Of a stretch of 64,000 nt of DNA, positions 16,901 to 43,675 are shown in pieces. Under the pieces are notes generated by a model. The model saw nothing but the letters and a program-made list of their open reading frames with translations. It ran no database searches and was not told where the DNA came from. The position numbers were made by a program, and so were the translations under genes. Within the stretch, counting starts at the first letter, position 1. Each line of letters opens with the position of its first letter. The DNA is from Streptomyces abyssalis (GTDB lineage: Bacteria > Actinomycetota > Actinomycetes > Streptomycetales > Streptomycetaceae). The stretch spans positions 1,109,045 to 1,173,044 of the forward strand of contig NZ_LJGT01000041.1 of assembly GCF_001751365.1 (NCBI RefSeq), written 5' to 3'.

Positions 16901-17514
16901 TCCGTATCGCCCTGGACGGCTTCGGCAGCGGGCCGCTGGCGGTGTCGGCCCTGCGGCGGCTGCCCGTGGATGTCGTGAGACTCGAACGAACCCTCGTCGA
17001 GGGCGTGGTGGAGTCCACGAGGCAGCGAAAGATCACCAAGGGGCTGCTGCGCATCGCGGACGACCTCGGGCTGACGTCCGTCGCCGAGGGTCTCGACCTG
17101 CCCGAACACGCGGTCAGACTGCGGGAGATGGGCTGCACCCACGGCCAGGGTGCGGTCTTCTCGGGGCCGCTCGACGAGCACCGCTTACGTCACGCGCTCT
17201 CGCGCGGGGTGCTGCCGGTGCCCGAGGAGCGCACGCCCGCGCGCGGAGTTCCCGCGTGCGGGCGCCCGGCGGGTTCGGCGGGTGGCCCGGCACCGGGAGG
17301 CGCGGCGACGGGCGGGAGGAGTGGTCACACTTCGTCCGGACGGGGCGGCGGCCGCTCGGTCGTGGTCGCCGGAGCCCTGCCCGTAAGGTTGCAGGAACGG
17401 CGCGAGAGCATGCCGCCGTGGCTGGTGTCGGGGGACGTCAGGGAGCCAGTGGAACCGGTCACACAGCCGCCGTCTCCGTGCCCGCATGCTGAGACGCGTG
17501 TCCCACCCACTTGA
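13951..17514 (+). CDS. cdgC: membrane GGDEF protein with PAS and degenerate EAL domain
   Basis: About 1187 residues from ATG 13951; other in-frame starts are 13825, 13867 and 14107, the last with GGGGGA just upstream. After a Pro/Ala/Gly-rich N-terminus there are multiple TM helices at about 130-470, a PAS domain at about 484-600, a GGDEF domain at about 605-775 and an EAL-type domain at about 830-1087. The cyclase signature is complete (LFIDLDGFKAVNDSVGHQGG and RLGGDEFAVL at residue 684). The EAL half lacks the EAL triplet (AVTAHPRKR instead), has LDGFGSG for DDFGTG and LERTLVEG in place of KxDxxxV, so it is probably not a phosphodiesterase. Predicted role: c-di-GMP synthesis and signal sensing in development. 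The symbol rests on its position directly upstream of ilvB, where I recall CdgC in S. coelicolor. Confidence 0.85.
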   Translation: MDELPVDEAPYTTDTLPSAGPAAGPERGSARVPVPRPRVPEAREGSVPQGDTMTAGGAATRQGIVRTPAGAPAFAPPSTQPGAPHAGEVPSGGRPGGVGAPAVSGALAPDGAEPRGGAAAPAGPSRVVSVLPQLLLVVLCCGYAAGAAVGWGSEQVSLFMGDFGLSAAGLLAAASCVRYARAHRGTQLGPAWLMFGLSSLMAAAGNAVWGWYEVVLHQPVPRPSAADFCFLLFAPPAIIGLLVLAKRPVTRAGWVCLGLDSWLIGGSLLTISWSLALVHTAYWEGDSVARAALSLAYPLLDIVLVSMVLVLHFRRSAAHRSAINTAIGALALTVLCDALFTSPLLREHYTSGQLLDAGWFAGSLLLAYAPWVKGEREAARAGTARKGAAAGPGRAVAVQDREDVPDGDSPSRPIAGSLAALTPYLAAAVCTLGILYNAVSGREIDGVVLFTACTVVLALVVRQGIMLLDNISLTQELAQKENHFRSLVQGSSDVIMIASPTGMLRYVSPAAAGVYGRDGDALIGSELAALIHPEDLARVLHELRRFLATPPHQEPSTRIECRFRHGRGHWLNVESTVNRYRSGLIFNSRDVTERVRLQAQLQHNASHDPLTDLPNRALFTERVRKALVGRRGGDSEHAVLFIDLDGFKAVNDSVGHQGGDELLVAAARRLQESVRAGDTAARLGGDEFAVLILGDGNPSTHSETEREQRIHEIADRLRMTLSEPYSVEGREVRIAASIGIAFAEPGISPTTLMRNADLAMYRAKQAGKARVELYAPRLQDGTPGKPGTYAAGVPRAAGGTREDHEAGREVHESGAAAKRHAVAAAAQPGSEFTLLHQPVVELAGGKITAVTAHPRKRSAQGVLFTPAEFLRAGSGDGSGSPGAGDGGSGVRPGAAAESGHRLLEEAVRQAVARHGAGFPVPVSVRLPAACLTESAPGSRTVEAVLAPRDELPPGSLILELTGADTRVALDELEARLSALHRLGVRIALDGFGSGPLAVSALRRLPVDVVRLERTLVEGVVESTRQRKITKGLLRIADDLGLTSVAEGLDLPEHAVRLREMGCTHGQGAVFSGPLDEHRLRHALSRGVLPVPEERTPARGVPACGRPAGSAGGPAPGGAATGGRSGHTSSGRGGGRSVVVAGALPVRLQERRESMPPWLVSGDVREPVEPVTQPPSPCPHAETRVPPT

Positions 17515-17546: not shown

Positions 17547-17588
17547 ATGCGCACCCGAATTCTCGTACTTGGAAAGCGCGTCGACTGA
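17547..17588 (+). CDS. ilvB leader peptide
   Basis: 13-codon reading frame MRTRILVLGKRVD, with GGGGGAGGG seven bases before its ATG. It contains Ile-Leu-Val-Leu in a row, the residues made by the downstream enzymes, and is followed by a terminator. Ribosome stalling at these codons would govern read-through into ilvBNC, as in classical attenuation. A similar leader before ilvB is known in streptomycetes. It is much shorter than ordinary genes and has no other function I can see. Confidence 0.85.
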   Translation: MRTRILVLGKRVD

Positions 17589-17661
17589 CCGGGTCCACAC
17601 CACGACCCGCGATCCCAGCGACGCGCTCCCCTCGCTTGCCTCACGGCACGAGGGGTTTTTT
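17589..17661 (+). promoter_or_regulatory. ilvBNC attenuator
   Basis: Between the leader stop and ilvB the RNA can form a rho-independent terminator: CCCCTCG (17628-17634) pairs with CGAGGGG (17649-17655), with inner GCC/GGC pairs, followed by TTTTTT (17656-17661). The preceding 17589-17627 would hold the competing pairing, for example GGGTC/GACCC-type arms around 17590-17605. The combination with the leader peptide makes attenuation by charged Ile, Leu and Val tRNA the likely control. Confidence 0.85.
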
Positions 17662-17750
17662 GTTGCACAAACGCCGGAGACAAGCTCCACCACTCAGCAG
17701 CAACCGCACAAATCGAGCGTCAACCCTCACTCTCCGAGAAGAGATCACCG

Positions 17751-41595: not shown

Positions 41596-41625
41596 CCTTG
41601 CCTTGCCTTGCCTTGCCTTGCCTTG
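41596..41625. repeat. CCTTG microsatellite, six units
   Basis: CCTTG repeated six times exactly, followed by CCGAG/CCGGG pentamers. A five-base repeat of this purity is unusual in such a GC-rich genome. Confidence 0.85.
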
Positions 41626-41754
41626 CCGAGCCGGGCCGGGCCGGGCCGAGCCGGGCCGGACCGGGCCGGGACCGGCCGATGCCCGCCGGGCTGGCGCCCG
41701 GGCGGCCGGGCCTCCCGCGCCAGCGGGAAGCCGCTTTCCGCATCGTGAGACGCC

Positions 41755-41791
41755 TTGCGGGCGCGGGGGCGGTTTGTGCAAGACTCCCCCC
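41755..41791 (+). promoter_or_regulatory. candidate cimA leader promoter (leaderless)
   Basis: TTGCGG at 41755 and AAGACT at 41780-41785 are separated by 19 bases, with the GTG of the leader peptide six bases after the -10, so translation could begin on the first base of the RNA. Confidence 0.4.
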
Positions 41792-41842
41792 GTGTCCTCG
41801 TTCGCCATGATTATCGGCAGCAGGCGCGCCGGTCCTTCGTGA
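41792..41842 (+). CDS. putative cimA leader peptide
   Basis: 16-codon frame MSSFAMIIGSRRAGPS, containing two Ile codons in a row after an internal Met. There is no ribosome site; a -10-like sequence lies six bases upstream of GTG 41792, so it would be leaderless. It is followed by a hairpin and a terminator. Ile is the end product of the citramalate route, so stalling at the Ile pair is plausible. The peptide is inferred from layout only. Confidence 0.5.
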   Translation: MSSFAMIIGSRRAGPS

Positions 41843-41847
41843 CCGAC

Positions 41848-41930
41848 TGCCGCAGGAAGACCCGTGCGGCAGCGGCCACCGTGTCCCAGACCCGCGCGCC
41901 AGACCTCTCGCACCCGCGAGAGGTTTTTTT
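41848..41930 (+). promoter_or_regulatory. attenuator before cimA
   Basis: First hairpin CTGCCGCA/TGCGGCAG at about 41848-41873 (possible pause stem). The second is a rho-independent terminator: CCTCTCGC/GCGAGAGG (41904-41923, loop ACCC) followed by seven T. It ends 134 bases ahead of cimA. Confidence 0.75.
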
Positions 41931-42064
41931 GGTTTCCGGCCCACCCCAGCCGGGACGACCGGCGCGAGAAGGCAGCGGAACAACCCAGGGACAAGCGGAC
42001 CCCGGAATTGCGGATCTCCCTTCGTCGCCCAGAAGCACAGCATCCACCAGGAGCCACAGCAGCC

Positions 42065-43675
42065 ATGAGCACTGACGCCCCGGCCGCCCCGGACGACAGC
42101 TTCCACATCTTCGACACCACGCTCCGCGACGGAGCCCAGCGCGAGGGCATCAACCTCACCGTCGCCGACAAGCTGACGATCGCCCGTCACCTCGACGAGT
42201 TCGGCGTCGGCTTCATCGAGGGCGGCTGGCCGGGGGCCAACCCGCGCGACACCGAGTTCTTCGACCGCGCCCGTCAGGAGATCGATTTCCGGCACGCGCA
42301 GCTCGTGGCCTTCGGCGCGACCCGTAAGGCAGGTGTGCGCGCGGCCGACGACGCGCAGGTCAAGGCACTGGTGGCGTCCGGCGCCCCGGTCGTCACGCTG
42401 GTCGCGAAGTCGCACGACCGGCACGTCGAGCTGGCCCTGCGCACCTCGCTGGAGGAGAACCTGGAGATGGTCCGGGACACCGTGGCCCACCTGCGCGAGC
42501 AGGGACGCCGGGTCTTCGTGGACTGCGAGCACTTCTTCGACGGCTATCTCGCCAACGCCCGCTACGCGAAGGAGGTCGTGCGCGCGGCGCACGAAGCCGG
42601 CGCCGACGTCGTCGTCCTGTGCGACACCAACGGCGGGATGCTCCCCGCGCAGATCCAGGCGGTCGTACGCACCGTCCTCGCCGACACCGGCGCCCGCCTG
42701 GGCATCCACACGCAGGACGACACCGGCTGTGCCGTCGCCAACACCCTCGCCGCCGTGGACGCGGGAGCCACCCACGTCCAGTGCACCGCCAACGGCTACG
42801 GCGAGCGCGTCGGCAACGCCAACCTCTTTCCCGTGACGGCGGCGCTGCAGCTCAAGTACGGCAAGCAGGTGCTGCCGCAGGGCGCCCTGGAGGAGATGAC
42901 GCGCATCTCGCACGCGATCGCCGAGGTCGTCAATCTCGTGCCCTCGACCCACCAGCCGTACGTCGGCACCTCGGCCTTCGCGCACAAGGCGGGGCTGCAC
43001 GCCTCCGCGATCAAGGTCGACCCGGACCTGTACCAGCACATCGAGCCCGAACTCGTCGGCAACAGCATGCGGATGCTCGTATCCGACATGGCGGGGCGCG
43101 CCTCGGTCGAGCTGAAGGGCAAGGAGCTCGGCTACGACCTGGAGGGCGACCGGGACCTGGTCGGGCGGATCGTCGAGCGCGTCAAGGAGCAGGAGCTCAA
43201 GGGCTTCACCTACGAGGCCGCGGACGCCTCGTTCGAACTGCTGCTCCGCGACGAGGTGCACGGCCGCGCCCGGCGCTTCTTCCGCCTGGAGTCCTGGCGG
43301 ACCATCGTCGAACAGCGCCCCGGCGGCGGCCAGGCCAACGAGGCCACGGTCAAGCTGTGGGCCAAGGGCGAGCGCATCATCGCCACGGGTGAGGGGAACG
43401 GACCGGTCAACGCCCTCGACCGCGCGCTGCGCAGCGGTCTGGAGCGCCTGCACCCGGAGCTGGCCAGGCTCTCCCTCGTGGACTACAAGGTCCGCATCCT
43501 CGAAGGCGGGCACGGAACCGACTCCACGACGCGTGTGCTGGTCTCCATGAGCGACGGGCGCGCGGAGTGGTCGACCGTGGGCGTCGCGGACAACATCATC
43601 GCGGCGTCCTGGCAGGCACTGGACGACGCGTACACGTACGGGCTGCTGCGGGCGGGCGTCGAACCACACGAGTGA
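42065..43675 (+). CDS. cimA: citramalate synthase
   Basis: 536-residue HMGL-family enzyme, the citramalate synthase type (TIGR00977-like), which condenses pyruvate and acetyl-CoA to make citramalate for isoleucine by a threonine-independent route. Landmarks are FDTTLRDGAQREGINLTVAD at about residue 15, FIEGGWPGANPRDTEFFDRA, VFVDCEHFFDGY, LCDTNGGMLPAQIQ, CTANGYGERVGNANL and a C-terminal regulatory domain from about residue 400. LeuA has different loops here. ATG 42065 follows AGGAG. An attenuator lies upstream. Confidence 0.92.
   Translation: MSTDAPAAPDDSFHIFDTTLRDGAQREGINLTVADKLTIARHLDEFGVGFIEGGWPGANPRDTEFFDRARQEIDFRHAQLVAFGATRKAGVRAADDAQVKALVASGAPVVTLVAKSHDRHVELALRTSLEENLEMVRDTVAHLREQGRRVFVDCEHFFDGYLANARYAKEVVRAAHEAGADVVVLCDTNGGMLPAQIQAVVRTVLADTGARLGIHTQDDTGCAVANTLAAVDAGATHVQCTANGYGERVGNANLFPVTAALQLKYGKQVLPQGALEEMTRISHAIAEVVNLVPSTHQPYVGTSAFAHKAGLHASAIKVDPDLYQHIEPELVGNSMRMLVSDMAGRASVELKGKELGYDLEGDRDLVGRIVERVKEQELKGFTYEAADASFELLLRDEVHGRARRFFRLESWRTIVEQRPGGGQANEATVKLWAKGERIIATGEGNGPVNALDRALRSGLERLHPELARLSLVDYKVRILEGGHGTDSTTRVLVSMSDGRAEWSTVGVADNIIAASWQALDDAYTYGLLRAGVEPHE

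Follow-up and report, generated by a model that had tools for sequence, protein, structure and literature searches.

The step that commits pyruvate and acetyl-CoA to isoleucine is catalyzed by citramalate synthase, and the control of its gene, cimA, seems undescribed in Streptomyces. The DNA immediately upstream of cimA in a 64,000-nt stretch of the Streptomyces abyssalis genome (the window, meaning the whole stretch analyzed) raises the question of whether this step is governed by transcription attenuation, as proposed in the original prediction from a -10-like box, a leaderless GTG peptide with an Ile-Ile pair, a pause-like hairpin, and a rho-independent terminator with seven U preceding a citramalate synthase gene.

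Composition of the cimA leader

All of these features were present in the window (Table 1), with one requiring reinterpretation. The downstream gene product matches the TIGR00977 equivalog above its cut-off (620 bits vs 450; E 2.6e-186), which identifies the gene as cimA and not another synthase of the same family. The GTG codon lies 6 nt past the -10-like hexamer, a spacing from which leaderless translation of the peptide is predicted. The hairpin described as pause-like does exist, as the tip, named P2, of a longer rod that has P1 at its base. A terminator scan of the window returned one site as compared to 0.7 expected in shuffled sequences, a result near chance when taken alone, and Rfam gave no match in the window at gathering score, with only sub-threshold chance matches at the leader; the case for an attenuator therefore rests on comparison. 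Conservation, unlike the terminator scan, is taken here as the decisive sequence evidence for the reality of the predicted elements. Tandem simple repeats of CCTTG and GCCGG(G) were also observed at window positions 41598-41680, between ilvE and the cimA promoter region.

Table 1. Features of the cimA leader in window coordinates
Feature	Position	Strand	Remarks
cimA leader, whole	41741-41930	+	upstream of cimA
CATCGTGAGACG element	41741-41752	+	about 40-50 nt 5' of predicted start; kept across Streptomyces cimA leaders; also 5' of ilvB
-10-like hexamer AAGACT	41780-41785	+	consensus CAGACT, preceded by TGTGN
Leader-peptide ORF, predicted leaderless, VSSFAMIIGSRRAGPS*	41792-41842	+	16 codons; GTG at 41792, TGA at 41840-41842
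Candidate regulatory isoleucine codons ATT ATC	41810-41815	+	conserved in Streptomyces and other genera
P1 5' arm GCGCGC-C-GGTC	41824-41834	+	10 pairs without variation in Streptomyces; covariation in 62 leaders outside the genus
P2, upper part of rod	41839-41879	+	5' strand contains the stop codon; 5 pairs with two-sided changes in Streptomyces
P1 3' arm GACC-C-GCGCGCC	41889-41900	+	directly 5' of terminator; covariation
Intrinsic terminator T, stem-loop AGACCTCTCGC-ACCC-GCGAGAGGTTT	41901-41926	+	11 pairs; covariation
U-tract, seven T	41924-41930	+	mean conservation 0.90
cimA, (R)-citramalate synthase, presumed regulated gene	42065-43675	+	TIGR00977 equivalog

Conservation within Streptomyces

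The leader DNA was matched by blastn in 294 of 296 Streptomyces genomes, with alignments stopping shortly past the terminator, and conservation was counted over 107 distinct cimA leaders. An uninterrupted ORF closed by a stop codon was found in all 107, starting with GTG in 106 and with ATG in the remaining one. The first Ile codon (41810) was ATT in 106/107, and the codon at 41813 was ATT or ATC in 96, ATG in 10, and ACC in 1. In fourteen of the 107 leaders, a single base is missing from the stretch that separates the Ile codons from GCGCGCC, and each of the fourteen regains a stop in frame, giving 18-residue peptides of the SAPVRS type as compared to the 16-residue SRRAGPQ type. Such regained stops make little sense as a pattern of sequence change unless ribosomes read the ORF and its end is important.

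Mean conservation across the 107 leaders was 0.90 over the CATNNTGAGACG element (41741-41752) vs 0.60 and 0.54 in its flanks, 0.89 at the -10 box (41776-41786), 0.92-0.98 over the ORF region, 0.98-0.99 in the P1 and T segments, and 0.99 at 41889-41923, with a lower value of 0.74 at 41938-41959, 3' of the terminator. This drop, together with the ends of the blastn matches, leaves no sign of a conserved promoter 3' of the terminator, where a transcription start was named in the original prediction as grounds for abandoning it. Where the hexamer was recognized, its distance to the start codon was 6 nt in 22 of 23 Streptomyces leaders and 6-8 nt in 49 of 52 others. The cimA leader of Streptantibioticus rubrisoli encodes VSFAMIIG*, with a TAG just 5' of P1 as in distant families, and retains the long Streptomyces-type rod.

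Distribution across the class

A covariance model (R1) built from 37 leaders found matches in 143 of the 297 class genomes, and 80 loci were retrieved; nearly all inspected best matches lay 5-203 nt 5' of a cimA match. A refined model (R2) matched 220/297 genomes and 96/114 genera, and cimA itself was found in 237/297; R2 also detects related attenuators before other genes, hence more than one match in some genomes. The cimA leader appears to be among the more widely conserved attenuators in actinobacteria.

Leaders outside Streptomyces are shorter (∼85-108 nt), with small P1 hairpins. Across the class, cimA leader peptides comprise ∼8-18 codons with a GTG or ATG start, and those outside Streptomyces include MLRSRSIIG*, VLHRTVIIIT*, VTTTVIIT*, VAQALIIG*, MFYGLLIIGRRAG*, and VPSQVIIIVRRAG*. 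Most other genera carry Ile-Ile or Ile-Ile-Ile. The Ile codons are kept across the genus and in ∼60 other leaders of the class, as the attenuator proposal had called for, and the two codons that had seemed unusually few are indeed two but typical of a family that ranges from one to four, mostly two or three.

One genus (loci L203, on the strand opposite to the retrieved sequence, and L218; genomes G465 and G391) has a second Ile-type leader with P1 and terminator, encoding MFALVIIM* or MFTPRIII*. It precedes a small ACT-domain-like protein, not cimA, with a weak Pfam ACT_4 match below the cut-off; this protein is possibly an isoleucine-feedback subunit.

Structure and covariation of the leader RNA

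In Streptomyces, the leader is predicted to fold as a rod in which P1 (GCGCGC-C-GGTC with GACC-C-GCGCGC) forms the base and P2 stands on top, with T following directly. P1 is without variation in Streptomyces, and double changes occur in five P2 pairs and two T pairs. P1 is the part of the rod that is kept outside the genus, where its hairpins span 22-38 nt and the long form of P2 is mostly missing. Covariation was assessed in an alignment of 62 leaders outside Streptomyces that was built from sequence alone. Two-sided changes were found in five of nine P1 pairs and seven of 11 T pairs, with 95.6% of T cells paired. Double-change cells in P1 and T together numbered 91, where shuffling gave 23.6 and slid controls 4-14. 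Both stems covary across families, and covarying stems were among the signs that the original prediction had recommended looking for. Only two plain hairpins are seen in these 62 leaders, without a conserved unpaired pocket.

Ribosome position and the P1 hairpin

Geometry was measured on 80 clearly folded leaders. The first Ile codon lies 11-14 nt 5' of P1 in nearly all of them, while the stop codon shifts between 4 nt 5' of P1 and 23 nt within it (stop-to-P1 distance, -23 to +4). The gap between P1 and T is 0 in 70/80 leaders and at most 2 nt. The leading edge of a ribosome lies ∼12 nt past the A-site codon, as established by toeprinting, and the fixed distance from first Ile codon to P1 therefore matches a ribosome with that codon in its A site.

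Partition-function calculations, in which the ribosome was assumed to reach 12 nt beyond its A-site codon, gave mean P1 probabilities of 0.99 (Streptomyces) and 0.92 (others) when the A site holds the first Ile codon, 0.78 and 0.64 when it holds the second, and 0.00 and 0.02 when it holds the stop codon. P1 is thus predicted by these calculations to be an RNA structure dependent on ribosome position. T was computed at a mean probability of 0.94-0.98 in every ribosome state, and the folded leaders offered no alternative pairing incompatible with T, P1 and T having no bases in common in 80/80.

In the leaders, most Ile codons are AUU (33/42 in Streptomyces and 70/127 in others), a codon that is otherwise rare: its share of Ile codons is 1/75 across four window genes and 48/1030 across the cimA genes at other loci.

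Proposed mechanism and alternatives

The cimA leader is very probably a ribosome-mediated transcription attenuator that puts cimA under isoleucyl-tRNA supply. It combines a translatable ORF with conserved start and stop, end-product codons at a fixed place, and an intrinsic terminator between ORF and gene, as expected of leader-peptide attenuators. Comparison of leaders shows a conserved, translated ORF with its Ile codons, covariation in P1 and T, a constant spacing between the first Ile codon and P1, and the abutment of the two helices, and folding calculations show P1 switching with ribosome position. Transcription would start at or beside the GTG, and a ribosome would translate the leaderless peptide. 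Under a shortage of charged Ile-tRNA, this ribosome would stall once its A site holds the first Ile codon, with its leading edge, ∼12 nt on, at the foot of P1, allowing P1 to form; P1, flush on the terminator hairpin, would stop T from acting, and RNA polymerase would read into cimA. With ample Ile-tRNA, the ribosome would reach the stop codon, cover the P1 5' arm, and melt P1, upon which T would act and cimA expression would be low. The sign of control would be derepression on starvation. A biosynthetic gene is expected to be switched on by starvation, and only a stalled ribosome would leave P1 standing. P1 would therefore have to counteract T, and the conservation of their close contact suggests an effect of position, probably through abutment or a steric block at the RNA exit channel.

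A classical trp-type attenuator, in which the stalled ribosome would favor an antiterminator pairing with part of the terminator stem and the terminator would form otherwise, shares the logic and order of parts of the cimA leader, and the leuS leader, of like architecture, has been termed a classical attenuator (PMC1262725). This arrangement is nonetheless unlikely given the lack of shared bases between P1 and T and the near full probability of T with the ribosome at Ile or stop codons; the N-terminal part of the leader, the one remaining candidate for such pairing, shows no conservation beyond Streptomyces. Two specific alternative pairings were rejected. The first would pair the ORF start (CTCTCG in many Streptomyces) with the terminator 3' arm, but other families and the Streptomyces that have GTGCTTGCTACCACG do not conserve this part of the ORF. 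The second, a hairpin through the AGACC direct repeat before the terminator, is weaker and would still have the U-tract after it.

The near invariance of P1 and T in Streptomyces and the extra covarying helix P2 could instead reflect an RNA structure recognized by a protein or small molecule (a riboswitch-like or RNA-protein attenuator) with the peptide incidental, as could codon substitutions in the S. coelicolor ilvB leader that reportedly had no effect on regulation (PMC1262725). This ilvB result counsels caution for the whole attenuator group. A ligand-binding RNA is, however, quite improbable for the cimA leader: besides the lack of an Rfam match and the plain hairpins without a pocket outside Streptomyces, the conserved unpaired part consists of the Ile codons, in frame with start and stop, and the amino acids encoded in related leaders follow the downstream pathway. 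The near-chance terminator scan would also fit a different role for 41901-41930, in ending a transcript from upstream or in RNA decay or pausing, with cimA transcribed from a separate downstream promoter and the ORF arising by chance. This is highly improbable, as the -10 box, start, Ile codons, P1, and T are kept together before cimA over much of the class and conservation falls after T. The ribosome-mediated attenuator remains the preferred reading, and in producer strains, deleting either the terminator or the Ile codons should free one step in the supply of branched-chain precursors from control.

Relation to known attenuators

Leader-peptide attenuators have been described in actinobacteria for ilvB, leuS, leuA, trp, and others (PMC1262725, PMC8079986), and the main text of an RNA-seq survey of S. 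lividans reports eight attenuators, cimA not among them (PMC8079986). In the literature searched, mainly open-access articles without supplements, no account of leader-peptide attenuation of Streptomyces cimA was found. The gene is missing from the published attenuator lists consulted, and flush, noncompeting hairpins may be a new variant. In the enterobacterial trp, his, and ilv attenuators, the antiterminator and terminator pairings are mutually exclusive. The cimA leader is reminiscent of these in the use of end-product codons in a leader peptide to control an intrinsic terminator, but such mutually exclusive pairing was not found in it.

Closer parallels exist within actinobacteria. The ilvB leader (ilvL; S. 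lividans MRTRILVLGKRVG*) likewise combines a short leaderless peptide with pathway codons, a hairpin adjoining the terminator, and a branched-chain target, is found by R2, and has CATNNTGAGACG upstream; it differs in its mixed Ile/Leu/Val codons and its target gene, and is already in the literature. Similarly, the Streptomyces leuS leader (leuL2, MRAVRLLLSEPR*) is leaderless, with regulatory codons just 5' of a hairpin adjoining a U-tailed terminator, but uses Leu codons, acts on a tRNA synthetase gene, and has been described previously (PMC8079986, PMC1262725). The ilvBNC attenuator of Corynebacterium glutamicum is reported to resemble the cimA leader in having a branched-chain leader peptide without a ribosome binding site (cited in PMC4046766), but is a valine-containing leader of the ilvBNC operon. 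The LEU element of actinobacterial leuA (PMC1262725) also places a Leu-codon leader peptide before a synthase related to CimA, but forms a pseudoknot with the leuA Shine-Dalgarno box and lacks a terminator, in contrast to the P1 and U-tailed terminator of cimA.

Sister attenuators

Among R2 matches, including some outside the class, like architecture was found before ilvB, leuS, leuA, and a threonine-dehydratase gene. The leader codons differ by gene, being III or IIT for cimA, LLL for leuA and leuS, mixtures such as LVLIT for ilvB, and AIT for threonine dehydratase. That the codons track the downstream pathway argues that they are the sensor, and in this respect the sister leaders support the original proposal of a leader-peptide attenuator. 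The window holds an ilvB leader of its own (ORF 17547-17588, MRTRILVLGKRVD*), matched by the cimA-derived R2 at 17547-17666, and leuS-type leaders were found at three loci (L202, L213, and L222), the last being the leuS leader of S. abyssalis itself. At a threonine-dehydratase-like gene (L188, genome G438), a like-built leader 5' of the gene encodes VQLHLMAIT*, which suggests that the threonine-dehydratase route to isoleucine also carries an attenuator in some families.

A wider generalization falls somewhat short of probable: a widespread actinobacterial design in which the ribosome opens or leaves a sensor hairpin flush (0-2 nt) on an always-formable terminator, the abutting helix would prevent termination, and cimA would be the isoleucine member beside ilvB, leuA, leuS, and the threonine-dehydratase gene. 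The comparative dataset assembled here (a covariance model, ∼100 leaders, and matched sister-gene leaders) serves the question of whether a helix flush on a terminator can antiterminate without common bases, and the flush-helix idea may help with the puzzling codon-mutant results at the ilvB leader.

The CATNNTGAGACG element has four exact matches in the genome and none for the reversed pattern. Two of the four precede ilvB (17485-17496) and cimA, and the element is a possible common regulator site of these genes. NdgR was considered as the factor and rejected, its published motif, [GT]T[CT]CAC...GGAC (PMC4340878), being different and the text of that paper making no mention of SCO5529. As a possible marker of a branched-chain regulon, the element fits at those two of its four exact sites; the other two lie near acid-phosphatase-like and sulfurtransferase-like genes.
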